This document shows positions 669 to 64,000 of a stretch of DNA of 64,000 bases, piece by piece. Position numbers and translations under genes: made by a program. The first letter of the stretch is position 1, and every line of letters begins with the position of its first letter. The notes beneath the pieces are model-generated. The model was given only the letters and a program-made list of their open reading frames with translations, was not told where the DNA came from and did not search any database. Source of the DNA: Scenedesmus sp. ARA3 (taxonomy: Eukaryota > Chlorophyta > Chlorophyceae > Sphaeropleales > Scenedesmaceae); the NCBI GenBank assembly GCA_004335835.1, contig RWJK01001720.1:5792-69791 (forward strand), written 5' to 3'.

Positions 669-2378
669 CTACTGCTCATCGTCCTCTGCATCGCTGGCAG
701 GGACCATCTCCTCATCCCCTGCCGCCTCAGCAGGCTCGGCATCACTGCCCAGCAGCTCCTCACTTGCTGCTGCTGCTGCCGCTGCTCCCTCACTCGTGCG
801 CTGCCGCTGGCTGTCCCTGCTGCCCTCTGCCGGCCCTGCTGCTGCCGCCGCTGCGCCATCGCCAGCTGCCTGGTCGCGCGGCCGCCGCCGGCCCTGCTGC
901 TGCTCCTGCTGCTGCTGCTTTTGCTGCTGTTCCTGCTGCCGCGCCTCCTCGGCTGCGCGTGCCGCCTCACACAATGCGGAGCGGATGTCGCTGCAGAAGC
1001 CCTGCAGGCACAGCCGGACAGCCACACAAAACACACATCAATGGTCAGACATAGCAAATGATAGTACGGTGTCGATTTTGCCCGCACTTTTTGAATACAG
1101 AGCAAGCAAAGTCAGATGCTGCATTCGCCCCCGCCCAAACAGCACCCAGTCAAGCTAGGCTCTTCTACCACACCAGTGCTGCACACTCAAAAGGAACAGA
1201 AGAGCGCGCTCAGCCCTTGTGATACACGCTGTGGCGCCGCACCTGTATGCTGGCCTTGTTCACATACACCACTGCGCTGTCGAAGGCCTCCCGGCTGTCG
1301 TCCCACATGATGTTGCAGTCCGGGTGCTCCAGCACAGACCTGAAGGTGCGCCCAAAGATGTTGTACTGCAGCAGCACAGCACAGCACAGCAGCCGGCGCA
1401 GCAAATGGCTTGGCAACACAGTGCATGAACAGAGCAGTCGAGATGATCAAAAACCAGGCAGGCAGTGCTTCAGCAGAGCAAAAATCTTTCAGGCACAGTC
1501 ATTGAGCCACACCTATGCCTAACTGGCCAGCAGGTTTGCCGCACATCAGATGAAGCATACAACACGAGCAGTGCAGTGAAGATGACCAACAGTGCAACTG
1601 CTGCATGCAGCCTTTCAGCACAGCAAGCTCAAACAACCAGAAATCAGCGGCGCCGCCAGGCTGGGCTCGCCTGTGCCTTGCTGGCCAGCAGGTTTGTGGC
1701 ACACTAATTGAGACAAGCAATCAGCAGGCAGCAGCGCCGCCAGCTGCGCTCGCCTGTGCCTTGCTGGCCAGCAGGTTTGCAGCACGAGGATTGAGGCAAG
1801 CAATCAGCAGGCATAGTCATATCCAGCTGGGCTCACCTGTGCCTCGCTGGCCAGCAGGTTTGCGCGCAGGCCCAGCACCAAGCAGCAGCCCTGGCTGTCT
1901 TCCGGGCCCACCACTAGGATGGGGTAGCTGCACGGCCGCAGCCGCGCCACCTGTGCAGCACAACATGGCACAGCCAGCACACAGTGCACGTGTTGCAATG
2001 AGGAGCAGGCACCAGAGCTACACCAACCAAGGAGCAGTCCTACGCGCTAGCATTGCGGTTTCATGGGTGCAGGCACTCATAACGGCACCCAGTTACTGTG
2101 CATGCCACTGCAAACAGACACACGAACAGCTGCCTATCCTGCTCTCAGCCCAGAGCTCCCCAAGCAAAACAGCCACGACAGTGCTTGTGCAACAGCAGAT
2201 GCTGGCCGCTGCGCACCTTGGTCGCGTCGCGCACATATTGCGCCAGGCGCAGCAGCGTGAGCGGGTGCCTGAACTCGCGTGCGTTGGTGGGCGGCGAGGT
2301 GTGCAGGAACAGCTCCTGCATCTTGGCTGCTGCGTTGGTGATGAGCATGCGGTCGGTGACCATGAGTCCGCCGTCCCT

Positions 2379-2418
<40 letters not shown>

Positions 2419-5400
2419 TGGCAGTGCATAAGGAAATGAGTTCTTTGCCTGCATGATTGCGGCCAGCATCCAGGTGAGGGCTGGACTGCAAGCAACACTG
2501 GCAACCACTTGCATATTCCCTGGGCTAAGTTACATGCACACTTTGCAGGGGCGTGCCACATGCACACACCATGGTGCTGGACATGGCCCTGCCTGCGTGC
2601 CAGCCAGCATGCATGCGCGCGCTGCTGCTGTGCCACTCACTGGATGATTGCCTGCTGCATGCACTTGGCCATCTTAATGCCGTGCTGCAGCTGCTTCCAG
2701 CCCTCAGTGCTGTGCGCATCGATGGCCTCCACAGCATGCCTGCAAACACAAGCAGTAGCAGCAGCAGCAGCAGCCGTCGTTGGTGCTTTCAGCAAGGAGC
2801 CCTGCCAGCTTCAAAGCACTACAGCGGCTTGTATTTGCACACACCTTGACAGCAAAGATTGGTGGCTGAACAAGAAGCACTGTGCTGGCTATATGTGCAG
2901 CAGCTACAGGGGGATGCATGTACGCAAGATTCGCACTGCAAGCACTCACCAGAAGGCCGCAGAGCTCTGCCGGTCGCCCGCCACCTCCGCCACTGTGTGC
3001 TCCGTGAGCAGCGCTGTCACCGCGTGCACCACGTCACTCGCAGCAGTGACCTGGCGGCTGTGGTGCAGCGCAAAGCCGTCACAGGCCAGGTCGGAGAAGG
3101 CCAGCCGGCAGCGGCTCTTTTCAAGGGCCTCCTGCAGCTTTCCGTGGAAGGCCTGCAGGTCGTGCTGCTGCAGGGAGGCTGCGGTTGGAGAGAGGTGAGG
3201 AGAGGTTATGATCAGCAAAAATGGTGGAGCAGCAAGGTGAGACGGGCAGGGCTGTAGAGATATGTGCGTGTGACAGGCTGCATGCATCTCTGGCAGGCCA
3301 TTGCGTGCAAGCAAGGTTCAGCCACATCACTGTACGGCAGCTTGGCGTGCGTATGGTGTCGGATGCAAAACACAGATATGCATGCATATGACGAGTGTAT
3401 GCATGTGTGGCTAGCGCCCAAGCATATCTGCAAGGAGCAAAGGCAATGTGCATGTGCTACGCCGTTCACTGTACGGCAGCTTAGTTTGCGCCTCCTGACT
3501 GCCAATGTGCGCAAACCGTGTATCTACAAGTTCAGCAGGTTGCGCCCAAGCGCCACTGCATGCAACAGGCATGCGTGCCAGGCGATTCACAGTATGGCAG
3601 CTTGGCGTGCGTCTCGCGCCGGATGCAAAACACAGATATGATGCATATGACTAGCGCCCAAGCATCACTGCAAGGAGCAAAGGAAAAATGATTGTGCTGG
3701 GACACTCACTGTACGGCAGCTTGGCTTGTGCCTCCTTGATGCCCATGTGCACAAACAGCAGCTGCAGGGTTTCGCGCCCAGCCTGCCGCCACGTCTGCAG
3801 CCGCGGCGCTACATACGACGAGTAGGCAAAGGCGTCAAACAGGCTCCAATGCCGGTGGAGCATGATCCTGCGGGCAGGGCGTCGGTGCAACGTATCGAGT
3901 GCGCGTCAGTTGGGCAGCTACCTGGGCATGCCATGACAAGCAACACGTGCCTGCATTAGAGACACAGGCCAGTGCCCTGCCGATCCAGGGTACAGGGCTA
4001 ATGGCTGGTGCTGGCTTGAGTGGTGACAGGGTGATGAAGATGAGGCAGCCCAGACTGACTGCCAGCGTTGTATACTGCCACCCAGGTTGTGTACACAAGC
4101 AAGCGTCAGTCCAGGCAAACATAGCACTCAGCTGCATCTGGTACAGCCACCTGCACCCTGTTGCACATGCAACAGGGTTTTAAGCAGTTTGTGCAAGCTT
4201 GGTGGAACTCGCACCACCCGCGCTCGCACCTGTACTCCCGCTCTGCTTGCACCCGCGCCGTGCTGGGCGCGCGCTGGCCCGTGCTGTTGTTGTCCCGCTG
4301 CTGCTGCTGCTGCCCCTGTGCGCCTTTGTTGTCGCCAAAGTAATTGCCCACGTCGCTGCACAGCTTTGCGTACCACAGCCTGTAGTGCTCGCTGCTGACT
4401 CGCTGGTGCACCCACTGGTCAGTCAGGCCCACGCAGCACGGCCTGCAGGGGTGGTAAGAAGGCAGCAGGGCTGGATTGTCAGCACGCAGCTGTACGGTGA
4501 AATCAAAACTTTCTTGCACTGGCCAGCGCTGTCTCTACTGATGCAGCCGTCTGCAAGCACCCCTGTCATCCACTGTAGAAGTGACCATTGCTGCTGCTGC
4601 TGCATAAACAACATGCTTGCGACGTTGCGCACGCACCACAGCACGCTGAGGTCTGCGCGCCCTGCCAGCTCCTCTGCCAGCGGCTGCAGCAGCAGCGGGC
4701 TGGGCTTGCCGTAGCTGCTGCCCATGTCAAAGTAGTCGGACAGCAGCCGCTGCCGCGCCCGCAGCGCGCGCAGCTTGTCCCTGTGGAACAAGCACGTCAT
4801 GATGCACCATGTTAGCGGATGCACCATGTTATATGTGGACATCAAGCTGCACTGGCCTAAGGTACCACAACATACACGACGGTGTGTACGCACCCGTTGA
4901 GGACAGCAGCACATGGTTGCATTGTTAATTATATTGTGTGCGGTGATTGCAGACAGCACTGGAGCACATATCCGCAGTATTGCTGCTGTTGCAGCAGCTG
5001 CTGGCATTTAACGCCATCTGCACACCTAGGTGCTACTACTGCTGCTGCAGTGCGCACCTCCACTCTCTACTGACTGGCTGCCCGTCCTGCGACTGCTCCT
5101 CCTCTTCCTGGTCTTCCCGCTCCGCTCCGTCTATGATCGATTGGCGCTCTGCAGGTGCAAATACGCACAGGCAGGGACAGGAGCATGCACACACAGCAGA
5201 CAAGTGGGTGGCAATCCAACGCACGCCCCTGCTGGGCGCTTTTGACGCAATCTGCTGCATGCTGCAGCTCCACAGCAGCATGCTGCTGTCCTCGCTTAGC
5301 CCCTGCTTGCAGGACGGAAGCCGCTTCCTGCATGCGCTGAACAGTGCAGACCCGCCCGGATGCGCCAGCACCGTGCATACACAAAACGAATAACGCAGCA

Positions 5401-39600: not shown

Positions 39601-40843
39601 CAAGAAGGCGGTGTGCTAGTTTCAGCTATTGCTATCTGGCCCATGGGGAACCTGCAGGCGGCACAGCAGGCGTGTAGTGGGGTGGGCCACAGCAGGGTGT
39701 AAGCAGTAACTAGGCTGTGTCAACCGGTGCTGTTGAGTTGCTGGTGTATGAAAGATGATTATCCGCAACACAAGTGCATATGCAGCTACCGCGTCAGCTG
39801 TCTGCAACAAGCAGAGCATGTCGCTTCTCTCAAAGCCAAAGTCCACTATTTTTCTGCACCTGAAAAGGGGGTGGCTTGCCACATGCCACTTCTTCGACCG
39901 GCCCTGCCAGCACGCCATTTGCAATGCTGTACACTGCAAGCGGTGCGGAGTGACTGTTGGTGAGCAGCAGCTGCCCCTGACCCCGCCACCATGCCATGGT
40001 AGCTTCGTTGCTGCCATCCACACAACAACTGCGTATCTAAGTAATGTGCCAGCTGTCAGCAAGAAGCGCACACCAAACTATGTATACATTCAAAGCCACA
40101 AACATGATCTTGTTTGACCGAATCTCACCTGAAAGGGAGGCGGCCTGCCACATGCCACCTCTGCCACTGGTCCTGACACCACGCCAACCGCAATGCTGTA
40201 CACAGCAAGGGGTGCGGAGTGGCTGTTGGTAAGCAGCGGCTGCCCTGCCGCCAGCCCGTGGTACGCGGTGTTGCTGCCATTCACAACACAAACACATATC
40301 TAAGCACTGTGTCAGCTGTCAGCAAGAAGCACACACCCAACGACATGTCATTTGCAGCCGCAGCCTGTCATTGCTGCTTACCTGAAAGGGGGGCGGCCTG
40401 CCACATGCCACCTCTGCAACTGGCCCTGTCAGCACGCCAACCGCAATGCTGTACACAGCAAGCGGCGCTGAGTGGCTGTTGGTGAGCAGCAGCTGCCCTG
40501 CTGCCAGCCCGTGGTATGCGGTGTCGCTGCCGCTCTTGGTGGCTGACAGCGTCCAGGCAGCATCCTGGTGACACGGCAGCAGCAGCAGCAGCAGCAGATG
40601 CAGCATTTTGGACGAGGTGATGTGTTGTGCAGGTCAGCTTGTGTCTGTCCCCTGTGTGCTGCAGTGTCTGCTGTGTGTCAGCCACTGGTGTGAAGCCAGG
40701 TACGGCAGCAGCAGCAACTCTCCAACCCTGCCACTGCTTGACAGGCATGTGGCTTTTTGTATGCTGGCTGTGGTTGCTGCACAGCTCCCTTGCCCTTACC
40801 ATGGTATCTCCCATGAACATGTGCACCTCCGCAGCAGCAGCAC

Positions 40844-40928
<85 letters not shown>

Positions 40929-42877
40929 CGCTGCCACGCTCGACTGCAGTGCCCAGGTGGCATTGCCGGCAGTGATGCCGATGCTGTATGCTGCGCTCTG
41001 GCTCAGCTGCAGCGGGCTGGCCGGCTCAGCAGCCATGCACAGCTGCACCTGACTGGCCCGGCCCACAGCCACCTTGCCCTGCATGCAGATTACAATGCAA
41101 ATGCTGCCTCTTAGTAAACACTGCACATGCATTTAGTTCGTGATGCGGGCGGGCTCCTAAACCAAAGCCATGCCACAAATCCAGCTGCTGGGTGGGATTG
41201 CATGCACCTGCAAGGGGTGTTGTTTGCTTGCAGGCTGCTGCAAGGGGTGTTGTTTGCTTGCAGGCTGCTGCATGGGGTCTGCTGCTCATGCACTTTGTTG
41301 GTAATGCAAAGCATGCGGCAGCAGGTGCAGGCAGGTGCGGCTCAGCAGCCATGCAGCTGAACCTGGCTGGCACGGCCCACATCCACCTTGCCCTGCAATG
41401 CAGGCGCATGATGCACACACATATTTTGTGCAATGCAAGGTTGCTGTGCACAGCCCACGTGGGGCGGGCCCCCCAGGTGGAGCTGTGCTGCCTCACACAC
41501 AATACATGCTTGCACACCAAATCAAACATGCTATGGGTACTACAAAGGTTGCAGTTCTTCACTATGTGTGACATAGCGGAGCACTGCAAACTTTGTAGTC
41601 ATAATATAATGCTTGATTTGGTGTACAAGCATGTGCTGTGTGTGAGGCTGCACAGCTCCACCTGGGTGGCCCGGCCCACAGCAACCTTGCCCTGCATTGC
41701 AGGAGCTGAATACATACTGCTTAATAAAGGAATGCATGTCCTCTGTTTTTATGTGTGTGCGCGGGCTCACAGTCAGGGCAGCCCAAATAAAGCCCTCAAA
41801 CGAGTGTGCAAGTTATCATGGGGTATGCTGTTTACGCTGTCTGCTTGTCATGCTAAAGCATGAGGCAGTGCATGCACGCGCACTGCTGCTTGTGCTTTGT
41901 GTATGACATGCAGTGAACCCGTGCTGGCCGGAGGCGTGGCTGCTGTTTATGCCTGCTGCACCCCTGCTGCTACTCCTGCTGCTGCTGATGCTGCTGCTGT
42001 TTCTGCTACTGCTGTTGCTGCTGCTGCTGATACTGCTGCTGCTGCCTGCTTGCACACATGTCTTGCAGTACAATCCAGCCCTACCCAATCCAGCAAGTTT
42101 GCACCGCTCTGTATCGCAGATAGCCTTCAAGCTGTTACTGATTCACCGCTTGGATGAAGCAGTAAGTTCAGTACTGCCACGCACCTTGGACACACCACTG
42201 CCCAGCAGGAACGTTCTGGATGAGCCTCCCTCCCTGGCTATAACTGCCAGCACAGGAATGCTAGGTGACTCAAATAGCAGGTCACCTCCCTGCTGTAGTG
42301 ACAGCACCACCTGGCTGCTGCTGCTGCTGCTGCAGCCAACAGGCGAGCTGAAGTTGCCTGTCAATGAAGGAGGTGTGAAGGCTTGGCTTGAGCTGGGGAT
42401 GAGGTTTTGTGATGCAAGCTGCTGGCAGGTGACACTGCTGCTGTTGCTGTGCTGACAGGATGTGGTTACTTGCGTCAGCCCATCAGTCGCCCGTCTGCCA
42501 CAGGTGGAGAGGAACCTCTGGATGTCGGAGGGCGCTGCTGCTGCTGCTGCTGATGATGATGTTGCGGGAAAAGCATCCTGCACGCTGCTGTTTTTGTTGC
42601 TGTCGCGCAGAAACACTCTTTGTATGTTCCATAGTGAGCTTGTTTGGGCTGAAGCTGGGAGACACAGCAGGCCTGCAGCAGCAGCGAGCTGGGTGAGCGT
42701 CACACCCTGACCTGCAGGTTCACAACCCGAGACCGCATTCGTGAACTTGCCTGTCAGAACAAGTATCACTATACAATGATATGCTTTGGCGTTTCTTCTG
42801 GCATGCCGCATCACTAGGGCGCTTGCGAGCTCAGTGCACTTGTGGAAGTGCGCGCCATTGCACGGCCTGCGCGACAT
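31780..42877 (-). CDS. Large secreted wall-type protein with DUF11/prealbumin-like units
   Basis: Exons (sense order): 42185-42877, 40800-41078, 40382-40564, 39134-39283, 38577-38697, 37992-38175, 34714-37579, 34357-34506, 31780-32668; about 1,840 residues. Phases agree throughout, apart from an N gap of unknown true length in the last exon. A signal peptide follows the second Met, at 42811 (KAYHCIVILVLTGKFTNAVS). Repeated extracellular units follow, with marks such as YTWTVNKTAS, VTYTVQYNR, FNVSGSVHISNPAPIAASLA, LTVAPGQTLTCSW and DDTPGACVTV, as in DUF11/prealbumin-like surface proteins. A long Ala/Ser-rich linker separates units. The C terminus (QSYVAAQLNQLSGVSLPPDV, then AVLSRFNRGEMPG) resembles the end domain that often closes such bacterial and algal proteins. 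A cell-wall role is inferred. The intron after 38577 needs a GC donor. Whether a small extra exon lies in the 1.1-kb first intron is unclear. Confidence 0.7.
32187..32352. repeat. (CTG)n tract containing a 50-N assembly gap
   Basis: About 20 CTG units, 50 N (32246-32295) and about 19 more CTG units. On the minus strand both flanks are in the AGC (Ser) frame of the last exon of the 31780-42877 gene. The gap is therefore probably a poly-Ser run that could not be assembled, with a true length divisible by three. Confidence 0.85.
32739..32812 (-). repeat. Copy of last-exon 5' end and acceptor
   Basis: The last exon of the 31780-42877 gene begins at 32668 with AVLASSIRDSSGKLTHSIHT. Upstream in the transcript a near copy (AVLASIIRDSSGKLTHSIHT) with its own CTGCAG acceptor lies at about 32739-32806. 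It lacks a usable donor, so it is most likely an unused duplicate. Confidence 0.8.
33000..34060. other. AT-richer, repeat-free island inside an intron
   Basis: Within the 1.7-kb intron between exons 8 and 9 of the 31780-42877 gene, triplet repeats stop and composition shifts. A 126-codon minus-strand open frame (33096-33476) contains no recognisable domain. An old insertion is possible, but I see no terminal repeats or target duplication. Confidence 0.35.
34090..34290 (-). repeat. Two copies of exon 8 3' end and donor
   Basis: Exon 8 of the 31780-42877 gene ends at 34357 (sense FKACGTLQ then GTGGGTGG). The plus-strand text cccacctgcagtgtgcc recurs at about 34247-34263 and 34097-34113, each with the matching exon piece (catgctttgaaggg or a variant). 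Both lie in the downstream intron and keep the donor. Confidence 0.85.
37853..37893 (-). repeat. Copy of exon 6 3' end and donor
   Basis: Exon 6 of the 31780-42877 gene ends at 37992 (plus strand aactcacctggctatggatg). The identical 20 bases recur about 130 bases downstream in the intron, with an intact GTGAGT. Confidence 0.85.
38571..38577 (-). other. GC-AG intron donor
   Basis: Exon 5 of the 31780-42877 gene must end in phase 1 to join exon 6, which starts GC ACG GGG. The only fitting site is AG followed by GCAAGT, the strong form of a GC donor. The nearby GTGCTG would break the frame. Confidence 0.65.
38698..38772 (-). repeat. CTG-rich intron end before exon 5
   Basis: The sense strand is largely CTG units running into CTGCCTCAG, the acceptor of exon 5 of the 31780-42877 gene. 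Read as protein it mimics a Leu-rich signal peptide, which is rejected. Confidence 0.7.
38930..39020 (-). repeat. Copy of exon 4 3' end
   Basis: The last 26 codons of exon 4 of the 31780-42877 gene (SSSVAYQLDDADTVSSATST) recur downstream in the intron with one change (D to G). The donor region has decayed to GTGGGG. Confidence 0.85.
39462..39547 (-). repeat. Copy of exon 4 5' end and acceptor
   Basis: The first 26 codons of exon 4 (true start 39283, IPPCASVACSWRAFFPQPP) recur upstream in the transcript with a TTCAG acceptor (IPACASVACSWRAFFPQPP). Exon 4 therefore has a half copy on each side, each keeping its own splice junction. Confidence 0.87.
39845..40280 (-). repeat. Two long copies of exon 3 3' end and donor
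   Basis: Exon 3 of the 31780-42877 gene (40382-40564) ends GPVAEVACGRPPPFQ. About 50 codons of its end recur at 40130-40280 and 39855-40020, both still open in the same frame (LLLTNSHSAPLAVYSIAVGV and a variant). Their donors read GTGAGA and GTGCAG. Nearby intron text is duplicated too (gccagctgtcagcaagaag). Confidence 0.88.
40848..40926. repeat. Pure (CAG)26 tract, poly-Ala on the minus strand
   Basis: Read as GCT codons in exon 2 of the 31780-42877 gene, giving about 26 alanines in the first extracellular unit. Pure and long, so probably unstable. Confidence 0.9.
41338..41404 (-). repeat. Copy of exon 2 5' end and acceptor
   Basis: Exon 2 of the 31780-42877 gene starts at 41078 (GKVAVGRASQVQL). 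A copy (GKVDVGRASQVQL) with a TTGCAG acceptor lies about 315 bases upstream in the transcript. A further copy at 41640-41700 forms one arm of the hairpin described next. Confidence 0.85.
41430..41705. repeat. Long inverted repeat (intronic hairpin)
   Basis: Arms of about 110-125 bases (41430-41555 and 41585-41705) are reverse complements at roughly 85 percent by eye. Shared blocks include caggtggagctgtg, cctcacacaca and caccaaatcaa. The loop is about 30 bases. The right arm is a minus-strand copy of exon 2's start (GKVAVGRATQVEL) with its acceptor, so the left arm is the same piece inverted. It lies in intron 1 of the 31780-42877 gene. Confidence 0.85.
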
Positions 42878-44809: not shown

Positions 44810-46505
44810 TTACACGTTGATGGACTTGACGCTATCATTGATAGCGCCTGCTGCTGCTGCCTCCTTTGACTCATTGAGGGCGGCCTGCTTCACCCAGCCC
44901 CGCTGGCTGCGGGACTCGTAGGCAAACTTGATGCTGGCAGAGTGCAGGCCCTGCAGCATGGAAATGACAATACATTGGCAGGCGGCAGCGGCAGCAGCAT
45001 GATGTCAGCATTGATGCCATTGCTTCATGCATGTGCAGTAACAGTAGCTTCTGCGGCAGCGCTGTGCACGCAAGGCTTGTTGCAGCGCACTGATCTGAAC
45101 ACAAAGCTGCACATAGCTGCTGCACTGCAAACAATCGCACCGCTGCGTGTTGTGCTCAAAAGGCTGTCATATCCCAAGCAAGCAGCTTCCCAACATTGCT
45201 GAGTCAGACCATCACCCTGGTCAACATGCAACACAGACTAACATGTCATATAACATGTTACTTTTCACCAGCCACCCACCTCTGCCCGCTCCTCTGGCGT
45301 CCACTCCGCGAGGTAGTAATCCTCCTCGCTCACTCCCTCCTTGGCAGCAGCAAAGCAGCCTCCCCACATGGGGAAGTACATTGTGAGGTACAGCAGCGTA
45401 ATCCCCATCGTCATAACGCCCATCCACAAAAACCCTTGGGCCGTCGAGATCGGCAGATACGTGAAGAACAGCGCCTGCGTGACGGCCCCGCCGACGTTTC
45501 CGCCGGATCCGACGAATCCGGACACGAGTCCGGTCGATCGCTTGCTGATGAAGGGCACGATTCCGAAGGACAATCCGCAGCTCTGCTGGCAGAAGATCGA
45601 GAAAATGACAAGGATGGCCATTGTGGCTCCGAGGCTTCCGGAGGTGAGGCCCAGCAGCAGGCAGAAGAGGCCTCCCAGTGATTGGATGATCCACATCGCC
45701 CACAGCCTGCCCCGCATGCCCCACTTGCGGGCCACCAGGTCTGAGATGTAGCCGCCGGAGGGGCGGGAGAACAGGTTCATCATGCCTGCAGGCAGGGAGT
45801 GGAAGTGTGCAGTGTGCAGTGAGCAGCGCAGCTTGATTAGGAGGTGTCCGTAGTTTGAGCAGATATTCAAAGATCCAAGATTGGTGCTGCAGATCTAGAT
45901 CTGCACTGTTGTGCAGCCAGCAGGCTGCTGTCCGAACAACACAGCCCCGCACTAGCAGTACAGTGAAAGTTGTAAGCAGCTGGCACGCACGGGGAAGGAT
46001 TCCAGAATGTTGACCATGCCAGTTGTTGCCTGCTACATATGTCAGCGCCATCAGCAGCCATCATTGTGTCCGCGCCTTACGAAGGATGGCTGCCAGCAGC
46101 CTGCGATGTGCAGGCTCAACCTGCAGCGACACTAACTGTAGCTGTAGCTGCAGCATTGCACTGCATTGCAATGTGAGCAGCTTGTTATAATCAAAGCTGC
46201 CGCACTCACCGAAGATGGCTGCCAGCAGCCCTGCGATGTGCAGGTCAAGGTGGAAGTTGTCATACATGTACTGCGGCAGCACGTTGTCCACGGTAAGCTC
46301 CACACCTGGCAGCAGCAGCAGCAGCAGCAGGAGCAGGTTAGGGTGTCAGGCAGCTGCCGCAGAACGACGCGACAGATAACACCAAGCAGCACTTGCACTC
46401 AGTAGCGGCTACTTGTTCAAGAGCAGCATCAGACCGGGTGACCTCCCTGCTTGGCAAGCCGCCGCAAATGCAGCCACCTCCAGCTTACTACATGCTGAGT
46501 CACAT

Positions 46506-46544: not shown

Positions 46545-49500
46545 CTGATTGAACCCAACACCAAGCCCAGCGCCACTCACCAAAGCAGTAGCCGTAGGTG
46601 AGGGTCATCACCCATGTGCGGTAGTTGGTGATGGCCGCCTTCCATGTGCCCCAGGCGCTGCTCTTGCGCATGGCACTGCTCTTCTTCAGCGCCGCGTAGT
46701 TGCCATCTGGCATGTCTTGAGTGAAGGCCATGATGCAGATGGTGAGCAGCACCTGCAAGGCAGCAGAAAGCCAGGAAGGCCTGTTCAGGTAATTTTGCAA
46801 GGCTGCATGTCTTGCGTGATGGCCATGATGCAGATGGTGAGCAGCACCTGCAAGCCGGCCAGACAGGCGTGTAAGAAAGGTATTCTTGGTGTCGTCAGCA
46901 TCAGCTGGCTGCACGATGTTCAGCAGTTGGTAGTGCAGATGGACTTGCGCCATCTGGCGGGGAAGCTACAAGCTTCAGGTGTTACAGTGAAGCGACATGC
47001 TTGGTAACAGGCAGTAGACCCCTACTGCACAAGCCCAAATTATAAATTCATATATTAACTTAAAACAAATATTTTTCAACTTTGAAACAATGAGTATTCC
47101 TGGAAACAGCTGGGGCCGGAGCTCACACCTGGAAGGAGGCTGGAACGAAGAAGGCCCAGCGCCGTGCCAGGAAGGCGTGCACGTGTGGTTTTGGGTCTTA
47201 TCAACGGGCTGTTGACTGCGCAACACTGTCTAGCTCCATGAAGCATGTGCCAGCAGGCGCAGTACAACCTAGCACTCATCAGTGCAGATGCGGACGAAAG
47301 CACCATCAGGTCATTCAAAAATGGCCACAGCGCCGAACAGCCGAAGGCTTACACACCTGGAAGGAGGCTGGCACGAAGAAGGCCCAGCGCCATGCCTGGA
47401 ATGCGGGGGAGCTTGATGCCTTGATGCCGTCAAAGACCAGCGGCATGAGGAAGTGCGTGAAGCCGCCACCCATGTTGCCCTGCATTTGAAATGCATGGCA
47501 GAGAGGAAGTGTGCAGCAGAGTGAGCAAGATGATTTGCAGCAAAGAATAAGGCTCTTGAGAAAGCAGCTGATAGCTTGCAGCAGCGGCATGAGGAAGTGC
47601 GTGAAGCCGCCACCAATGTTGCCCTGCAGCGTGGGGAGGTAGCAGAACAACAGGCATATGTCACATGCATGTGGCATGTTAGGAGATGAGGGTCGAGAGT
47701 GCCCACCACCCAGGTACAGAGCAACATTCAATCACCACAACACTGACTCCAAAGTGTCAGGTGCCAGGCATGTGCACGGCATATTTGAGCCAACTCACCC
47801 AGCCTGCGGCCAGTGCGTTGGCCGTGTTCACCACCTTGGTGTTGAACATGGAGGTGACACCACACATAACAGCCACCACAGCTCGCAAGGTTCTGCGTAA
47901 TGTTGAGCCAACAACTCACCCAGCCTGCGGCTAGTGCGTTGGCCGTGCCCACGACCTTGGTGTTGAACATGGAGGTGCACCAAACAGTCGCTACAATGCC
48001 AAGACCCTCCCACAATGGTGCAGTATCAGCCGATAGCCAACAATTCGCCCAGCCTACGGCCAGCGCGTTGGCTGTGCCCACCACCTTGGTGTTAAACATG
48101 GAGGTGATACCACAAACAACAGCCGCCACAACTCGCAAGCTTCTGCGCAATGTTGACCCAGACACTCACCCAGCCTGCGGCCAGTGCGTTGGCCGTGCCG
48201 ACCACCTTGGCCTTGCAAATGCAGGTGCACAATACCATAACAACTGCCACAACCGACACATCTCATATCTGCATTGTATAGAGCCAAATACTCACCCAGC
48301 CTGCGGCCAGTGCATTGGCAGTGCCGACCACCTTGGTGTTGAACATGGAGGTGCACCAGAACTGGCAGGCCACAAAGGTAGCCAGGGAAAAGCCGATGAA
48401 CAGCCGGCTGATGATGAAGCCGGCCGCATTGGTGCACAGCGCGATGCAGTACACGGCCGGGGCGGTGAGGCCAATACAGAGGCCGATGCCAAAGCGGGGG
48501 CCGTAGGTGTCTGCAGGGGGTGAGGAGCAGGGAGGGGAGGGAGGCAGGGAGGGCAGAGCAAGCAGCAGGAGCGGCTGTGTTGTAACAAACCGCAGTTGGC
48601 GAGAAGAGGGGCAAACGGGCTTGTCTGGTTGTGTGCGCAGCCATGTGCGCAGGTTTAATTGAGTTGAAGCAAAATGCCCCCGCAACAGTGATGCATGCGA
48701 CAGAAGGCCGGTGAGACTGCTGCAGTGTCAATGCAGGTAGCAAGGCCAAGCATGCCGCCAGCTGCCATGCTGTTGCTTCTCATTTCTGCTCACCAACGAA
48801 ATTGCCCATGGCCACACGCGCAGCAATGGCTCCGCAAACTGCGGCAATGCCAGCATTGCTGCATACACACAGCAGACCAGCAGCAGTTGCAGTGTGAGCG
48901 CTGGTGCTGGTTGTTGTTCAGGACGTATGCGTGTCCAACAGTGTTTGCAAAGGGATTGCATGTGGATGCATGCAAGGAGAACATGTTGTGCTTAAAAATT
49001 GCAGCACTGACGTGGCCGTTCTGCGTTCTAACTGGCTACTGCATTGATCCAGTGCCGCACAGCTCTCAGTGCTGCAAAGGGCTGCAGCACTGCGAGCAGC
49101 GCTGCTGTAGCTGTTATCACTGCAGTGCAGCAGGGTACACTGTTACATACACCCAGCCATTGCAGTCAGCCTCATGGGCTACTGAGGCGCTGCTGGCATG
49201 CTGTGCATTGCTGTTGTTGCTTCTGCTTCTGCTGCTCACCCTAGGTCTGTCTTGGTGAGGTCGATGTTGTCGCGGATGACTGGCAGCAGCGCTGCTGGCG
49301 CAAAGGTGCTCACGAAAGCTGTGAGCAGCAGCAGGACATGGGCCAGAAGCAAGCAGCAACCGGAAACTTGAGAGATTGACCACAAATAAGTGACTGATAT
49401 GTTAAAGGCAGGCTCCATGTTGCTGTCACATGTGCAGTTGCCATAGCATGTGCCTGCCCACATGGGCACCATGTGATGCACGCCTGCATGCAGTGCTGGC

Positions 49501-51056: not shown

Positions 51057-54000
51057 ATGAGGGCTGCTATCGCCTGCCTGCTGGTGCTGGCGGGACTGCA
51101 GGCCACAGTTCTGGCTGCAGATGCAGATGCATGGAAGTCGCAGGTCATTTATTTCTTGCTCACGGATCGCTTCGCCCAGACACCAGGCACCACTCCTGGT
51201 GGACCATGCAGACTGACCAACTGGAACAACGGTGAGGACGGCCTGCAGGCTTCCGTTTACATCTAATGGCATCCAAATGTTAAACAGAAAGCAATCGCTC
51301 CTAGTTGTTTGGCGGAGGGCGTACTTCAGCAGTGTACTGTCCACCGGCCGAAGAGTTCGTTGAGTGATACTGATCGATTCGCAGCACCCAGAGCAGCAAT
51401 GTTGCATTGACTCAACACTTTAGGTTTTAAATAGCAACCAATTGCTGGCCAGTGGGAAGGACAACGAGTTCGCAAGGCATGCCAACACCGTACTGCTACA
51501 CTCTGCTGCTGCTTCAGCTACCTGCGTTCTCACACAAAGTCCTGTTGTTGCTGCTGTTTCACATTGCTACAGGTACCTGGTAAGTTTAGGTAGCAACTCG
51601 AGTCAGCCAACAACCGCAATTGCAGCTGCTGTCACGCCAGCTCTGCCATGCTCAGCATTGCTGAGGTGCAGCAAGCTCAAAATCCAGTGCAGGAGGCCGC
51701 CTTCAGTCAACTCTATTCCGCAGTAGCACCAGCAAATCCTTCCCTCCCGACTTAACACTGACGTTACACCTGTACTTAACAAGCACAGCAGAAGGCGCAG
51801 CTGACCGCCAGCAACTGTTCTCTGCTGCAGGGCTGGCATCACCAGCAAGCTTGACTACCTGAAAGACATGGGCATGACAGCGGTGCGTGTGTCAACCCTT
51901 GGTTTCATTGAACACATGTGAAGGTGCACTGGTTTCAGACCTTATTGCGCTGCAGCAGCATAGAACCTCCTGTCTTGGTGTGGATCAGCGCCCTGGCGGC
52001 TGCTGCAGCCACAGCAGTGGTGGCAGCAGCAGCAGTTGAAGCTGGTGTTCCAACACGACAACAATCAAGCAATGCTGCACTGCACATGTATGCATGCTGC
52101 TGCTGCAGATCTGGATCACGCCCATCCCTGTGCAAGTGGATGGCGAATTCTTCGGGGAGACTGGCTACCACGGTGCGTGGCAGCAGCAGGCAGCCTGGCA
52201 GCAGCAGCAGCAGCAGCAGCCTGGCGGCAACTGGCCCTTTGCATATTTTGAAGGCAGCAGGCACAGCCAGCCAGCTGCGCAGCACTTCGATTTATCAGCA
52301 TCGATGTACTGGTGTGCCGGGCCCTGCTGTAGCGCGAAGGTCGTGCATGTGGCTACCATTGGCGCTAGGCTGGAGCTGCACCAGCTGCTGCTGGTGGTTA
52401 ACTTGGTGTGTGGTTTGCCGATCTTGCTGGGAAAATGTGTGTTTGTGATTGATTGATTGGTTAATTTATTGCTGCTGCAGGCTACTGGGCGAAGGACCTG
52501 TCCAGCACTGATGTGGACCCACACTTTGGATCTGAGCAGGACCTGAAGACCCTCATCGCCACAGCACGCAAGAAGGGTGAGTGAAGTGACAGATGAGCTG
52601 CTACAGACAGGCACAGCCGCTGGTTTGGCAAACCTTCTTTGGTTAGAGGGGCAGTCAGTGGTTCACCTACCACAAGTCTTCGCAACCTTCTTCAGCATGC
52701 AGTGCATACTGCTGTTGCTGATCTTGGGGTAGCCGCATATGCTGTCAATACAACACATCACCTTGCACTTTGCGAATGTCTTTGCTTGACACTGTAACAA
52801 GCAATCTTATGCTTACACCCTCACCTTGCCAACTCCCGCACGCATCATGACCATGCTTGATGTGGTGGGCAACCTCGTGGGCCACTCCTTGTGTTGAGCA
52901 CATGCTGTCATGTGTTACATAACATGTGTTACATGCTGCTACGTGTCCTGCACGCAACATGACCATGCTCAATGTGGTGGGCAACCACGTCGGCCGCTCC
53001 TTGTGTTGAGCACATGCTGTCGTGTGTTACATAACATGTGTTACATGCTGCTACGTGTCCTGCAGGCATCATGACCATGCTGGATGTGGTGGGAAACCAC
53101 GTGGGCCACTCCCGCAGCAACAGCTTCGCCGACATAACACCATTCAACAAGCCCGAGCACTACCACAAATGCATCCCCGGCTGCGACCAGTGGTGCAGCA
53201 TCCCGCAGCACGCCTACGAGTCGCGGCCGCAGAACCAGACGCTGATCGAGCAGTGCCGGCTGCAGAGCCTGCCGGATCTGAACCAGAGCGTGCCGTTTGT
53301 GAGGGAGCAGCTGCTGAGCTGGTTGGACCGCACGCTGCAGAAGTATGACTTTGATGGGCTGCGCGTGGACACTGTGAAGCACGTGGGCGTGGTGAGTTGC
53401 GGGTGCAAATGGGGGTGCCGTTGAAGGGCTTGGAGGGTGCAGCAGCCTGTCACGCTGCAGAGTATGACTTGACAGGCTACTCGTCGACACTTTCAAGCAC
53501 GTGGGCATGGTGAGTGTGGGGCCTACCTGGGGGTGTAGGGTTTGGGGGTTGGCACACCAGACAATAGCATGTCAGCTAGGCTTGAAGGATTGGCGCACTG
53601 TGTCCAGGTGGCTGCAGCTGCTTGATACCCTAACGAGGCAGCTGTTGCCTAAGACACAGCAAGTTGAGCGCCGCCTCCCTACTGCATAGATTTGCCGCAA
53701 ACGGCACAATGCTGTCGCTGCACTATCAGCTGGACTTCAGTGCCGTGCTGTGTGGTATCTCTGTGCCCGCCTTCATCGTTTGCAGGACTTCTGGCGCGAG
53801 TGGACCAAAGTGGGCAAGCGCTTCACGCTAGGCGAGGTGCTGAATGGCGATGCGTCCACGCTGATCAAGTACGTGCAGGGCCCGGAGCCGGCCATGAACA
53901 GCTTGCTCAACTTCCCGCTCTACTACGCGCTGGCCAACGTGTTTGTGCACAAGCAGGGCATGGAGCAGTGAGTATGACTCGTACTGTATGAGGGGCTGGG

Positions 54001-56385
54001 GTGGGGAGAGGGCGGTTATGTGCACTACTGCACAGTACTGTGCAGACAATTGCGCGCAGCAGTGTGCCAACGTGTTTCGTGCACAAGCGGGGCTTGGAGC
54101 AGTGAGTGCAGATTGCTGGGAAGACTGTTCACCTGTGTTGCATTTGAGATGATGCGGCGGTGTTGGTAGCCGGCGGCTCGTGTGCCCAGTGTGAAATGGC
54201 TGGGTAACGCGTTGGTGCGCAAGCAGGGCGTGGAACAATGAGTATGCGGGCCTGGGGTTGGGTGGGGTGGGGGGTGTGTGCATCGTGCAGCATGGCTAGC
54301 AGCAGCATGCCAGCTTGTTCATGCGCAAGCAGGGCGTGCAGCAGTGAGTGCGGAACGAGCGTGCCGCTGCATTCTTTCCAGAGACATATGCTCATTTTGA
54401 CATGCCACCACCTCCTGCAACTCAGCCCCCACCTAACCCACACCCCTGCCCTGCCTGGTGTGCCTCTTCTGTCTACATACAGGCTGGCCACTGAGCGTGC
54501 AGCAGAGTACAAGCTGCTGGGCCCAGAGGTTGTTTCCACGATGGGCAACTTCATTGACAACCACGACGTGCCCCGCTTCCTCACGCAGCAGCCCGACGAC
54601 GCACTCCTGCGTAACGCGCTGACGTGGATTTTGCTGGCGGACGGCATGCCGGTAATCTACTACGGGACCGGCTCGGAAATGACCGGCAGCGTGCAGCACG
54701 GCGGCAACCGGAACTGCCTGTGGGAGCAGGGCTATAACGAATCCAACCCTACTTTTCAGACAATTAGCAGGCTGGCCAAGTGAGTAGCAGCAGCATGGGC
54801 TGGCAGGCATGGTTTGGCTGCTGAGTGTTGTTTGATTGGTTTGTGCACCTGCTTAGTGGTGCAGAGGCTGCATATATTCCTTCTGCACTTCCCTGTATCA
54901 TTCTGCACCTCCCCTAAACTGTGTCTTGTGTTATCGTGTTGTGCTGTTTGTGTCCTGCCACAACAGCTTCCGCCTCAGCCACAAGCTTTGGAAGCAGCCC
55001 GAGCAGACGCTAGCAGCCACGCCCGACTGCTATGTGTACTCGCGCGGACCCAACATGCTCGTCGTGACCACCAACGGCGGCAGCGGCAGCGCCAACACCT
55101 GCAGCGTGCAGCTGCCGGCCAGCTCTATGCTGATGGATAATGGTGTGTCTGCTGTGCACGACCTGCTGGCGATGAGCACGGTGAGTGGCGTGCAGCAGCA
55201 GCAGCGTATGAGACTGGCCTGTGCACACGCTGTATACACCACAGCAATAGATGATGATGATGGCGGCGCGCCGGCTGTGCACAACCTGCTGGCGATGAGC
55301 ACGGTAAGTGGTGTGCAAGAACGGCAGCAGCAGGCTTTGAGATTAGCCCAGGCACGTGCTGTCCATAGCGCAGCGATAGATAATGATGGCGGCGTGTCTG
55401 CTGTGCACGACCTGCTAGCAATGAGCACGGTAATGGTGTGCAGCAGCAGCAGCCTTTGAATTCAGCCTATACACATATGTGTGGGACAAGAATGTTTCAG
55501 CAACAGTGTGAACAGGTGAAGCCTCTGCAGCGCTGCCGAACGACAAACGTATCATCCTTAATGTCAACGTTTTTCTTTGCTTGCATGTGGCATGCCGGTG
55601 TTGGTTGCTGCTGCAGGGCCACAACAGCGGCCTCGTGTTGTACCCCACCACGCGCCGCCATACCATTCAAATGCCGGGTGGCAGCCCCCGCGTGCTGTCC
55701 AGCTCATACTGTATATTTAACCCACAGTTCTGTCCTGTTTTTGTCGTGTGACCGCGGCTGTAGCTGCTGCAGGGCCATGAGAGCAGCCTGGTGTGGTACA
55801 GCAGTCACACAGCATACTGCAATTCAGTGAAAACATACATACTCATCATGCTGCTGCTGCTGATTTACAAATTGTTGGTTGCTGCTGCAGGGCCACGAAA
55901 GCGGGCTCGTGTGGTACCCCACCTCGCGACGCCTCACAATCCATATGCCAGGCGGCAGCCCCCGCGTGTTGTCCAGCTCATACTGTATGTATAACCCACT
56001 GTTTTGTCATGTTGTTGTCGTGCCACTGCCGCTAGATGCTGCAGGGCCATGAGAGCAGCCTGGTGTGATTCAACAGTCACAAAGTATGCTGCAACTCTGT
56101 GAAACGTACATACTCATCATGCTGCTGCTGCTGCTGCTTCAAACGCTGCAGGGCCACGACAGCGGGCTCGTGTGGTACCCAACCACGCGCCGCCTCACAA
56201 TCCACATGCCAGGCGGCAGCCCCCGAGTGCTGTCCAGCTCGCCAGCCAGCCCAACCAGCCTAGAGCAGTCCGCAGCAGCACAGCACAGCATCAGTGCCGC
56301 ACCACCCACCAGTGCGGCGAGCGCCGGCACGATCTCTGGAGTGCTGGCCGCGCTCGCGCTGTTTGTGGCGATGCTGCTGCTGTGA
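51057..56385 (+). CDS. Secreted GH13 alpha-amylase (fungal type) with GPI-type C terminus
   Basis: Hydrolyses internal alpha-1,4 bonds of starch. Exons 51057-51231, 51573-51579, 51831-51882, 52109-52172, 52481-52576, 53066-53391, 53786-53967, 54483-54779, 54967-55180 and 56152-56385 give 548 residues, with all phases consistent. A signal peptide (MRAAIACLLVLAGLQATVLA) leads into SQVIYFLLTDRFAQ. The four GH13 regions are present: DVVGNHV, GLRVDTVKH (nucleophile Asp), LGEVLNGD (acid/base Glu) and FIDNHDVPRF (third acidic residue). The order resembles Taka-amylase-like enzymes (ITSKLDYLKDMGMTAIWITP, GYWAKDL). After the barrel a short beta domain ends in a Ser/Ala/Pro linker and a hydrophobic tail with no basic residue after it (SGVLAALALFVAMLLL), as in GPI-anchored proteins. 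The family YCGGTW motif is shortened to GTW. A role on external polysaccharide is inferred. Confidence 0.93.
51573..51579 (+). other. 7-nt microexon of the amylase
   Basis: GTACCTG lies between acceptor ctacag and donor gtaagt. It takes phase 1 to phase 2 and supplies the GT and part of W in the conserved GTW motif. Without it exons 1 and 3 are out of frame. Confidence 0.8.
52836..53010 (+). repeat. Two copies of amylase exon 6 5' end
   Basis: Exon 6 starts at 53066 (IMTMLDVVGNHVGHS). Copies of its first 50 bases begin near 52843 and 52955, each followed by ccttgtgttgagcacatgctgt. Both lack the AG acceptor (gcacgc instead of gcaggc), so they are probably dead. Confidence 0.87.
53448..53516 (+). 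repeat. Copy of amylase exon 6 3' end and donor
   Basis: The exon 6 end, including the nucleophile motif DNA, recurs as cacgctgcagagtatgactt onward with small deletions, then gtgggcatg followed by GTGAGT. It is 125 bases downstream of the true end at 53391. Confidence 0.85.
54060..54352 (+). repeat. Three copies of amylase exon 7 3' end and donor
   Basis: The true end at 53967 reads cacaagcagggcatggagca then GTGAGT. Copies at about 54081-54108, 54211-54247 and 54318-54352 keep caagcggggcttggagca, caagcagggcgtggaaca and caagcagggcgtgcagca. The first and third retain GTGAGT; the second reads ATGAGT. Confidence 0.88.
55264..55436 (+). repeat. Two copies of amylase exon 9 3' end and donor
   Basis: The true exon 9 ends at 55180 (AVHDLLAMST then GTGAGT). 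Copies at 55270-55308 and 55396-55436 keep the same codons (AVHNLLAMST and AVHDLLAMST) with donors GTAAGT and GTAATG. Spacing is about 125 bases. Confidence 0.88.
55617..56070 (+). repeat. Four copies of amylase last-exon 5' end and acceptor
   Basis: The true last exon begins at 56152 (GHDSGLVWYPTTRRLTIHMP). Upstream acceptors open similar pieces at 55617 and 55891 (long copies, about 100 bases) and at 55773 and 56045 (short copies, GHESSLVW). Long and short copies alternate, so the unit is a dimer of about 270 bases. All four keep CTGCAG. Confidence 0.92.
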
Positions 56386-59523: not shown

Positions 59524-59569
<46 letters not shown>

Positions 59570-60168: not shown

Positions 60169-60194
60169 TTGAGTCGTTGTGCTTGTGGCAGATC

Positions 60195-61227: not shown

Positions 61228-61928
61228 TTATCGCCTACCGCCGCCTCTGCCGCCTGCTGCCCCGCCGCCCCTCCCTTTCCCACCAGCACCACCACCCCGC
61301 TTTGCCTTATACCCAAAACCGCCAGAGCCCCGCGCAGCCCGCTGCCGCCGTGCCTGCTCCGCCTTGCGCTGCCTTGCCTCGCTCTTTTTCCGGCCCTTCT
61401 TCAGCTTCAGCCGTGAAGCTGCTTCCGGATCTAACAGCACACGCCGCGCCGCAGCCGTCTTGCGCGCTGCGCGTGCGGCCCGCACTGCCTCGCGCGCTGC
61501 CGTGTACGCCGCAAGCATCTGCTCGGCGCCGAACAAGGTGCGCAGATGCGCCAGGACCTGCTCAGACAGCGCACGGACCTCCTCAGGGGTGACCCCAGCA
61601 GCAGCAGCAGCACCAGCACCAGCATCAACTTGCTGGCGGGCCTGCGATGGCCCAGTTGCCTCTGCAATGCGGTACAGCGGCCGCAGCAGCAGCGGCAGGT
61701 GTGGCAGCAGCGGCCCCGTGCCGACGGCTGCTGCTGCTGCTGCGATCCAGCGCAGCGCGGCCAGGCGCTGCAGCTGCCGCGCGTGGCGGGTGTCTTCGGC
61801 AAGCCTCACCATGCGCACGATGAGGCCTTGCAGGGACACCTCTGCCTTGCGCTGCTGCCGCTGCTGCTGCTGCTGCTCGTGGTCTGCCACATCATCGTCC
61901 TCAGCATCTTCATCATGGTGGTGGCCGT

Positions 61929-61964
<36 letters not shown>

Positions 61965-62026
61965 CCTCATCGCTTTCACTGCTGGCTGCTCCCTCATCAT
62001 CTGCATCTTCCTCATCCTCGCTGCCA

Positions 62027-62065
<39 letters not shown>

Positions 62066-62251
62066 GCAGGCCCCTGCTGCTGCTGCTGCTGTGCTGCCAG
62101 GTGCTTTGCCAGCGCCACGAGGCACTTCACTGCCTGCGTGCACAGCCCCTCATCTACCACCTCTGCCTCTAACTGCCTGTACACAAACAGCGCCAAAGCC
62201 CCAGCACTCACACTGCAGCTGCTGCTGCCATCTTCACTACTGCCAGCACCC

Positions 62252-62290
<39 letters not shown>

Positions 62291-62585
62291 TCATCAGCAC
62301 CGCTGCCAGCAGCAGCAACCTGAATCAGGCCGTCTGTAACAGCAGGCGCAGCCAAGCCAAGCCCCAGCAGCCGCGCAGCCACCTTGCGCACCCACAAGTG
62401 CGGATGCAGCAGCAGCCGATGCACCAGCAGCCGCCACAGCTGCTGCACCTGCTGGCCCTGCTGCCAGCTCAGCGCTGCTATCCCCTGAGGCCCACTGGCA
62501 GCCTTCTCTAGCATCAGCAGCACATGGTACACCTCCTGCCAGCGAGGCACCCCTCCAGACAATCCTGCAAGACCAGCTTCCTCAC

Positions 62586-62625
<40 letters not shown>

Positions 62626-64000
62626 GGCGTCAGCATCATCCGCAGCAAAGCTTGCTGCCAGTGCTGCATCTGCTGCTGCCGCCGCGCCATCCAGCAGCAG
62701 CACCAGCCAACCCACGAACTCCGGACTCAGCCGCCGCTGGCCAAACCTCGGACCTTCTGCTTCAGCCAGCAGCCCTAGCGCATGTGCTGCTGCAGCGCGC
62801 AGCAGCAGCAGCTGCTGCTGATGTGGCGCGTCTGCGCCCTTGAAGAGCCACTGCTGAGCAAAACCAGCCAGCTGGTCATTCTGCTGCGCCTGCAGCTGCT
62901 TGTGCAGCAGCTTGACCGTGGCTGCTACTGCTGTGCGGGCTTTGGGGCTGGTCTCGTTTGCCAGGCGTGTCACTAGCGGCAGGTATGCTGTGGCTGCCAG
63001 GTTGGCAGTGACTTCCGGCGGGAACTTCAGCAGCACCTGCAGCAGCACAGCAGCACCAAAGCAGCAAGCAGCGAGTTCAATATGTAGTTCAGGTTTGCGG
63101 TGACTTCTGGCGGGAACTTCAGCAGCACCTGCAGCAGGCGGAGCAGTACCACAGCAGACAGCAGCAGGTTTACAGGTTTACCATGTAATTTAGCTCATGA
63201 CAGCCAGGTGAGGCAAGATTGCTGGCACCACCTGGGTCAGTCGTGAAGGAGGTGCACAAGACAAACCCTCGCCAGCTGTGCCAGCCGTCACACACCTTAC
63301 GTACGCCACGGCATGCGTGCAAAGCACATGCAGCAGCAGCGCAGTTTGGCGTCCCTGCTGCAGCATATCCAGTACAACAACTGTCTTCACAACACAGTAC
63401 CAACATATTCAAACATGTGCCACGCGCCAGCAAAGACTGTACACATGCACAGCCCCCGCACCTGCTGCAGCATCTCCAGCGCCGCCAGCCGGCCGCTCTC
63501 GTGCTCATAGCCGGCATTGGACAGCAGGAAGGCCACGTGGCCCTGCAGCCTGCTGGGGCTGAGCGGGTAGTCCAGCAGGAACTGCAGCAGCGACGCGGCA
63601 GCAGTGGCGCGGCCGGGAGGCGAGTGGCTCCTGCAGTAAGAGGGTCAGTGGCGGCAGCAGCAGCAGCAGCAGCAGCAGCGTCAGTTGAATGTGGTGCGGC
63701 GTGTGGTTGCTGCAGGGAATAAAAGCAGGCAGTCTGCCACATACCACAGCCGAATCCAACACATCATATCATCAACCTTCCAGCAAAAGCGGCTGCACTG
63801 CAGCTGACGTGAAGCCCCAGCAGCTGCTGTGAGGCCACGAATGCACTCACGTGATCATCTGCTTCTGCACGATGTCCATCACGTCATACACCTCAGGCAC
63901 CAGCAGCCGCCGCGCCAGCACAGCACGCAGCAGCCCATAGCCGCTCACGCGCTCGCCGCTGCTGCTGCTGCTGCCGCCGCCGCTGGTGCCTGCCAGTGCT
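61228..64000 (-). CDS. UTP20: UTP20, small-subunit processome component (C-terminal part)
   Basis: UTP20 is a very large HEAT-repeat protein of the nucleolar U3 processome that matures 18S rRNA. Three exons are in the window: 63851-64000 (cut by the edge), 63462-63630 and 61228-63036, phases 2 and 0; about 710 residues in all. Matches to the family are RRLLVPEVYDVMDIVQKQMI, LLQFLLDYPLSPSRLQGHV, NAGYEHESGRLAALEML, YLPLVTRLANE, LLLHPHLWVRKVAARLLG and the basic end LDPEAASRLKLKKGRKKSEA then GFGYKAKR. Acidic and Ala/Gln runs encoded by triplet repeats (61930-62080, 62260-62290, 62590-62625) interrupt the repeats where other species have a loop. The stop follows a Gly/Arg-rich tail that many homologues lack. 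Confidence 0.93.
63092..63135 (-). repeat. Copy of UTP20 last-exon 5' end and acceptor
   Basis: The last exon starts at 63036 (VLLKFPPEVTANL). The same 13 codons with a CTGCAG acceptor lie about 92 bases upstream in the transcript. Confidence 0.87.

Follow-up and report, generated by a model that had tools for sequence, protein, structure and literature searches.

In the window, the whole 64-kb stretch of Scenedesmus sp. ARA3 DNA that was analysed, pieces of exon ends carrying one splice junction recur in the intron that adjoins that same junction. We confirm that these copies, here called echoes, are real and extend beyond the window, with the same pattern in other sampled loci. Copies of a 3′ exon end with its donor site (donor echoes) lie downstream of the exon and copies of a 5′ exon end with its acceptor site (acceptor echoes) lie upstream, a side rule that is very strong, though not absolute. 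Of the sampled splice junctions, a share of roughly 1/7 to 2/5 has an echo in the adjoining intron. The explanation towards which we lean, if only slightly, is a founding tandem duplication that spanned the junction, followed by later recombination among the exon-like blocks, the exon itself included.

Exon-end copies and the side rule

The sample comprised 257 kb of an 87.3-Mb genome (1567 contigs) and was non-random, consisting mainly of chaperonin loci, the 64-kb window and stretches of one large contig; only L051 and L052 came from randomly drawn contigs. Exons were called with a self-made gene finder, except where a profile or protein supported them. The finder was self-trained on 58 of 59 matches to the chaperonin family PF00118 of Pfam, some of the 58 being echoes themselves, and was then retrained on 241 kb. 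Its output had the donor AG|GTG(A/C)G, the acceptor CTGCAG|G, a median exon of ~128 bp and a median intron of ~281 bp, and the predicted internal exons matched two named Tetradesmus obliquus proteins wherever tblastn aligned them. The nitrate transporter of the window had T. obliquus protein P0001 as its best match (98%). Outside the window, a chaperonin of the plastid type matched T. obliquus protein P0121, also at 98%, so the alga belongs to that species or lies near it. The finder fused neighboring genes and set gene ends wrongly; nine residues and the true last exon of the nitrate transporter escaped it. It also took some echoes for exons, and any echo predicted as an exon is thereby dropped from the counts of intronic partners.

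A masked self-comparison of the 257 kb yielded 147 clusters of local direct repeats, from which 214 pairs were obtained. One copy overlapped a predicted splice junction in 176 of these pairs; the others were intron-only (17), intergenic-only (3) or of other kinds (18), in unmasked sequence with 145 kb of intron, 57 kb of exon and 30 kb of intergenic DNA. An earlier note on the window had proposed a genome-wide comparison with shuffled positions. In the sample, the end of the best pair fell at a junction, 0-12 bp into the intron, for 58 of the 147 clusters, as against 10.2 ± 3.1 (maximum 21) in 1000 circular shifts. Where a good exon (score of at least 18) was paired with an intronic partner, the side rule was obeyed in 111 of 114 pairs.

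Probing of exon ends, which is independent of the repeat finder, gave the same result. For chaperonin exons supported by the profile (n = 55, each at least 80 bp), donor-end copies were found downstream of 22 and upstream of none, and acceptor-end copies upstream of 23 and downstream of none, so that 45 exon ends had copies on the right side and 0 on the wrong one. Across all sampled loci (exons of at least 90 bp), donor ends had copies downstream in 54/208 cases vs 4/207 upstream, and acceptor ends upstream in 59/213 vs 6/213 downstream; mid-exon probes scored 18/210 downstream and 8/209 upstream, and inverted copies were found for none of the probes. The rule, which the earlier note had reported as holding everywhere it looked, thus stands as a strong one with exceptions. 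In the window alone (exons of at least 80 bp), the figures were 9/57 downstream and 0/57 upstream for donor ends, and 7/53 upstream and 1/53 downstream for acceptor ends. The seven loci outside the chaperonin genes (L046-L052) had copies on the rule side of 11/53 donor and 10/58 acceptor ends, and on the wrong side of 1/53 and 0/58. Echoes are not present everywhere: L033 and L034 gave no repeat cluster in the masked self-comparison, L034 being a locus that holds a chaperonin gene with 18 good exons. L045 was masked whole in that comparison.

Copies in the window were located by aligning exon-end probes of up to 60 bp locally, at an identity of at least 0.75, with an exon score of at least 18 and the partner outside predicted exons:

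1754..1810, minus strand: donor echo of exon 1837-1950, identity 0.79, 83 bp downstream, GT changed to GC
1513..1557, minus strand: second donor echo of exon 1837-1950, identity 0.78
3470..3516, minus strand: donor echo of exon 3710-3867, identity 0.85
38934..38991, minus strand: donor echo of exon 39134-39232, identity 0.98
39134..39232, minus strand: exon with an echo on either side, from gene model and probe alignment
39462..39492, minus strand: acceptor echo of exon 39134-39232, identity 0.84, 260 bp upstream
39860..40188, minus strand: two donor echoes of exon 40382-40564 (39860-39917 and 40129-40188), tandem array with a period of ~253-269 bp
41338..41392, minus strand: acceptor echo of exon 40800-41078, identity 0.89
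41649..41691, minus strand: second acceptor echo of exon 40800-41078, identity 0.91
46080..46119, minus strand: donor echo of nitrate-transporter exon 46210-46305, identity 0.93, no GT retained in register
46795..46847, minus strand: acceptor echo of exon 46581-46752, identity 0.89
47129..47177, minus strand: donor echo of exon 47357-47479, identity 0.92, also a tblastn match to the T. obliquus protein
47357..47479, minus strand: exon with an echo on either side, matching residues 172-213 of T. obliquus P0001
47582..47623, minus strand: acceptor echo of exon 47357-47479, identity 0.98; no relation between the spacer and the echo's flank was detected
47799..48229, minus strand: array with four donor echoes of exon 48296-48510 at a spacing of 121-129 bp, identities 0.88-0.92
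52842..53000, plus strand: two acceptor echoes of alpha-amylase exon 53066-53391 (52842-52888 and 52954-53000), units of 112 bp, AC in place of AG in both
53452..53509, plus strand: donor echo of exon 53066-53391, identity 0.83
54053..54343, plus strand: three donor echoes of exon 53786-53967 (54053-54101, 54199-54237 and 54309-54343), identities 0.80-0.82
55251..55429, plus strand: two donor echoes of exon 54967-55180 (55251-55303 and 55375-55429), units of ~123-126 bp
55617..55950, plus strand: two acceptor echoes of exon 56152-56381 (55617-55675 and 55891-55950), 274 bp units
63083..63128, minus strand: acceptor echo of exon 62586-63036, identity 0.85, 92 bp upstream

The earlier note had counted about 35 copies by eye in seven genes. 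The pattern is real, and 28 copies were re-found at 17 junctions; the filters exclude further repeats such as 32602-32843 and 34073-34385. The copies sit in five of the gene stretches named there (0.7-6.6, 31.8-42.9, 44.2-49.9, 51.1-58.6 and 59-64 kb), and the figure of seven was left unconfirmed since the CAG-rich 12-30 kb is not reliably modelled and 29.4-49.9 kb was fused into one gene. One echo of each kind, as described for an exon of the 31.8-42.9 kb gene, is indeed present at 39134-39232, and likewise at 47357-47479 and 53066-53391. A 77 bp copy at 59064-59140 and 59188-59264, 124 bp apart, seems to take in the closing part of a last exon, stop codon included, and is perhaps an echo without a splice site.

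Anatomy of the copies

Probing the 102 junctions with an echo re-found 186 copies (one copy at 46 junctions, two at 29, three at 14, four at 6, five at 2, six at 1 and none at 4), and 174 of the 186 came within 3 bp of the exon end. The exon part had a median of 47 bp (5-95%: 29-87; 158 copies), with 6 of 158 copies extending through to the other end of the exon stretch compared (at most 130 bp). Spacings (n = 174) were concentrated at 80-174 bp (136, mean 123, SD 19), followed by 175-289 bp (30, mean 225), with 1 below 80 bp and 7 at 290 bp or more. In the 114 unselected pairs, the alignment ran into the intron for at most 12 bp in 58, for 13-40 bp in 13 and for more than 40 bp in 43.

The boundary was profiled in 57 clean pairs, whose sharpness is partly due to selection as they were chosen for an intron part of at most 12 bp. 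Identity in the 31 donor pairs was mostly 0.74-0.97 over the final 20 bases of the exon. In the intron it stood at 0.81-0.87 over bases one to three, 0.58 at base four, 0.84 at base five, 0.48 at base six and 0.29 at base nine; in the 26 acceptor pairs it dropped to background ~12 bp before the exon. Homology therefore stops at the junction or just past it, and what is shared just past the junction looks partly like the common splice consensus.

Such a boundary (exon identity mostly 0.7-0.97, background from ~9 bp past the donor and ~12 bp past the acceptor in the 57 selected pairs) would be expected if a copying process recognized splice junctions and wrote exon ends into the nearby intron, for example by template switching at CAG|GTG and CTGCAG|G motifs or with splicing intermediates as templates. 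The approach of nearly all copies to the exon end, the narrow spacing, and spacers that had no relatives elsewhere in the searches made agree with this as well. However, the inner breakpoint, and often the inner flank, tends to be common to the copies at one junction, which points to a founder and its amplification; some spacers were clearly duplicated together with the block; and RNA or cDNA templates would not predict the absence of inverted copies. We regard junction copying as unlikely, and a shade less likely still its extended form, in which the process repeatedly writes junction-cut exon ends ~120 bp into the intron and grows introns genome-wide. The suggestion in the earlier note of a process aimed at junctions is unsupported, since the exon-like blocks may be merely the recognizable remnant of older duplications.

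Spacers, breakpoints and flanks

The geometry had been ascribed to tandem duplication across an exon-intron border with the outer copy kept, and this does account for the direct orientation and the side. If ordinary neutral decay were all that followed, spacers would be expected to be about as related as the exon parts, given that a tandem duplication also doubles the spacer. Yet spacers were clearly homologous in only 49 of 150 exon-copy pairs and without clear homology in 101, and even at an exon-part identity of at least 0.95 they were homologous in only 10/33, compared with 39/117 at lower identity (10/33, 21/54, 12/39 and 6/24 in order of falling exon-part identity). Unrelated spacers are thus not explained by plain duplication, and the stop of homology within 12 bp of the junction in 58 of the 114 pairs also speaks against it. 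Gradual decay as the sole cause of lost spacer homology is disfavored because this homology does not track exon-part identity in exon-copy pairs.

Several observations nonetheless favor plain duplication and decay. Long array alignments extend into the intron in 43 of the 114 pairs, and spacer 53001-53065 is a clear case of a duplicated spacer, 98% identical. In 10 pairs of intronic copies in which both parts align, substitution rates were about equal (0.125 in the spacer vs 0.112 in the exon-like block) and the spacer carried more gaps per site (0.079 vs 0.011); where spacers did not align (22 intronic pairs), the block was no more diverged (0.124). Spacer homology was also commoner at higher identity in intronic-intronic pairs, at 19/39 for identities of at least 0.90 and 15/58 below (3/7, 16/32, 5/25 and 10/33 from most to least similar). 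Pairs without strong spacer homology retained a weak in-register similarity (mean rank 0.68, n = 61), whereas at an identity of at least 0.95 no residual similarity was detected (mean rank 0.52, n = 10 of 16), both ranks being computed with trimmed spacers and same-locus controls. Pooled spacer divergence combines spacers that are homologous with others that are unrelated (null 0.218 substitutions per site) and was not relied on. On balance we think it improbable that plain duplication followed by neutral decay is the whole account.

Breakpoints and flanks were compared among copies at one junction. Inner breakpoints agreed within 3 bp in 52% of 66 pairs in which spacers were not clearly homologous and in 36% of those with homologous spacers (n = 33), against a null of 13% in 3956 cross-junction pairs. 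The flank beyond the inner breakpoint was homologous in 31 of 97 copy pairs; both flanks were homologous in 11, the inner only in 20, the junction side only in 18 and neither in 48, and in these 48 the inner flank still had a mean rank of 0.70 against the cross-junction null. The two flanks assort independently (Fisher p 0.48, with pairs at one junction not being independent of each other), as expected if exchange falls inside the block. Shared inner breakpoints together with independent flanks fit a duplication that founded the array and exchange that later took place within the exon-like block.

The founding event at many junctions would be a tandem duplication across the exon-intron border, with a unit of ~120 bp made up of ~47 bp of exon end and ~70 bp of intron. 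Splicing would continue to use the outer junction, so the inner copy would lie in the intron and drift, and amplification of the unit would give one to six recognizable copies. Unequal exchange or slippage could then recombine the exon-like blocks, among which the real exon would act as the constrained master; this would reshuffle and replace spacers and renew the blocks. Recognizable homology would consequently stop at two points, the junction and, across the block, the founding breakpoint. The likely outcome would be longer introns with scattered non-coding exon ends that retain splice-site motifs. Some observations speak against founding duplication with later recombination. A fresh junction-bounded copy would likewise leave no residual spacer similarity at an identity of at least 0.95; where spacers are homologous, the agreement of inner breakpoints is lower rather than higher; and the identity-linked spacer homology of intronic pairs is what simple decay gives. 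In echo 47129-47177, the codon for NRT2 residue 199 encodes L, as in the T. obliquus protein, where the exon has Q, and to judge by this site recent renewal of the echo seems doubtful. The constancy of the ~120 bp unit (123 ± 19 bp within the 80-174 bp class) lies outside what the mechanism explains.

Searches for relatives of the spacers bear on a mobile origin. In an all-against-all comparison of 57 spacers, cross-gene matches were short and weak only (E 8e-5 or worse). Another match was found for 34 of 81 exon-next spacers, and those at E < 1e-4 were in the same gene or an adjoining locus, bar one weak inverted match elsewhere. In whole-genome searches, an L035 spacer matched itself only, and a window spacer with its echo matched itself and its exon only. 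The absence of a spacer family in the searches made rules against a transposon or introner origin. With 46.0-49.9 kb as query, no second haplotype by which events could be polarized was found among the 40 of 167 candidates scored, which were diverged paralogs and short repeats.

Coding and splicing status of the copies

Differences between exon and copy were 0.082/0.063/0.149 by codon position and those between copies were 0.119/0.096/0.180, a pattern expected when a copy of a coding template drifts; the third-position excess between copies is as expected if they were taken from an exon still changing synonymously. The copies drift about neutrally and are therefore probably not exons.

That copies serve as alternative or decoy splice sites or as small cassette exons would agree with their splice-site scores, which reach at least the lower quartile of real sites in 51/85 donor and 43/74 acceptor copies, and with the prediction of some as small exons, including echo-derived pieces that entered the L044 chaperonin gene model. 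Against this, in-frame stops occur in 8 of 170 copies and frameshifting gaps in 50 of 170, and GT is retained in 75/85 and AG in 61/74, about the values predicted from the overall divergence of the copies. The two named T. obliquus proteins (516 and 579 aa) have lengths that leave no space for echoes, these lengths being annotations that may lack RNA support, and all eight of their secondary tblastn matches (one in the window and seven in L044) were echoes on the rule side. Functional exons are disfavored by the stops, the frameshifts and the near-neutral loss of splice dinucleotides, and we consider a function of this kind very improbable. Seeding of alternative splice sites, as the earlier note put it, draws on the good scores of many copies and is a possibility only, as GT and AG are kept about as divergence predicts.

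Many of the small exons are predictions, so we also considered an artefact of assembly or gene prediction. The copies show 0-25% difference from their exons, their spacers are not alike and they are spread over many contigs, which makes a collapsed or chimeric assembly unlikely, and the pattern is strongest on profile-supported exons and present on exons mapped by independent proteins. An artefact therefore strikes us as scarcely credible.

Comparison with known systems

The pattern was not described in any of the titles and abstracts listed in searches of the open-licence literature. Minisatellite arrays consist of head-to-tail units in variable number that undergo unequal exchange and concerted evolution. 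Echoes resemble them in their head-to-tail copies, 0 to 6 per junction, and apparently reassorted units, and the flank counts of 11/20/18/48 are consistent with exchange among units in this one genome; they differ in that a coding exon end anchors the array and that mainly the exon-derived half stays alike. Exon duplication, as in mutually exclusive exons, places an extra exon copy within an intron. Duplicated exons are whole, open and have both splice sites, whereas here usually one exon end is copied, with frameshifting gaps in 50 of 170 copies.

Tandem genomic duplication as a route of intron gain is reportedly described by Rogers and by Hellsten (2011). Tandem duplication within genes is connected with intron gain in a potato RdRp case (PMC4974935) and a review (PMC3443670), and in the potato case the duplicated unit spans the border between intron and exon and passes on splice signals (PMC4974935). 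Echoes too are direct repeats on the own side of the junction, with none inverted. In contrast to such gains, in which a new intron arises with its length set by the unit, the copies lie inside existing introns (main spacing class 123 bp vs a median of 435 bp for echo introns, an aggregate rather than a per-intron comparison), at ~120 bp or a few such units from the source, and recur up to six times. The spacer is clearly shared in about one third of pairs, and only the exon part is duplicated in pairs without a shared spacer. The examples in these papers are single cases or gains, whereas here a large share of junctions is affected.

Introners are mobile intron-making elements that act genome-wide, also in algae (PMC9860276), and the likeness lies in a genome-wide effect on introns that includes algae. 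They put similar sequence into introns of unrelated genes, whereas echoes derive from the neighboring exon, and a dispersed spacer family of that kind was found neither in the comparison of 57 spacers nor in the two whole-genome spacer searches. Introners also have a 3-9 bp target-site duplication or terminal inverted repeats; the repeated block of the echoes is ~47 bp of exon. The words Tetradesmus and Scenedesmus do not occur in the main text of PMC9860276.

Intron length and uses of the echoes

Introns with echoes were longer (median 435 bp, n = 50) than those without (254 bp, n = 172; one-sided p 6e-10). This agrees with the intron growth proposed in the earlier note as an association only, because longer introns give copies more room. 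The mean intron of T. obliquus UTEX393 is 462 bp compared with 230-302 bp in four other green algae (PMC5966456), and echoes are one concrete candidate source of this excess.

A sizeable share of junctions holds its own fossil record of local duplication, in which each echo duplicates an exon end, seems to have lost its coding role and lies beside the living exon; the neutral rate, the exchange rate and the decay of splice sites could therefore be measured within one genome. Echoes also provide a natural set of good-looking splice sites near real ones, on which spliceosome choice can be tested, and they call for caution with gene predictors, as with the finder used here.

Other features

A nitrate-transporter paralog on another contig (G000:C1223:35448-35690) matches window exons 48296-48510 and 47357-47479 back to back, and thus seems to lack an intron between those two exons. 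At L036:1555-2412, predicted exons of 90-102 bp are repeated about five times with starts 175-201 bp apart, a tandem whole-exon repeat unlike the one-ended echoes. The predicted protein of window 669-6603 looks like a putative CDC45, and that of 59073-63967 like a putative UTP20-type protein. Window 15.3-30.3 kb is a long CAG-rich stretch, hard to model, whose predicted protein contains runs of glutamine, serine and alanine, and CAG or CTG runs are found near 35.5-36.7, 59.5 and 61.9-62.6 kb. The 5.8 kb to the left of the window (L045:1-5791) were masked almost entirely as short-period repeat, and the window itself starts with a 23-bp tandem repeat (1-65). At 32246-32295, 50 N between TGC repeats are probably a scaffold gap.
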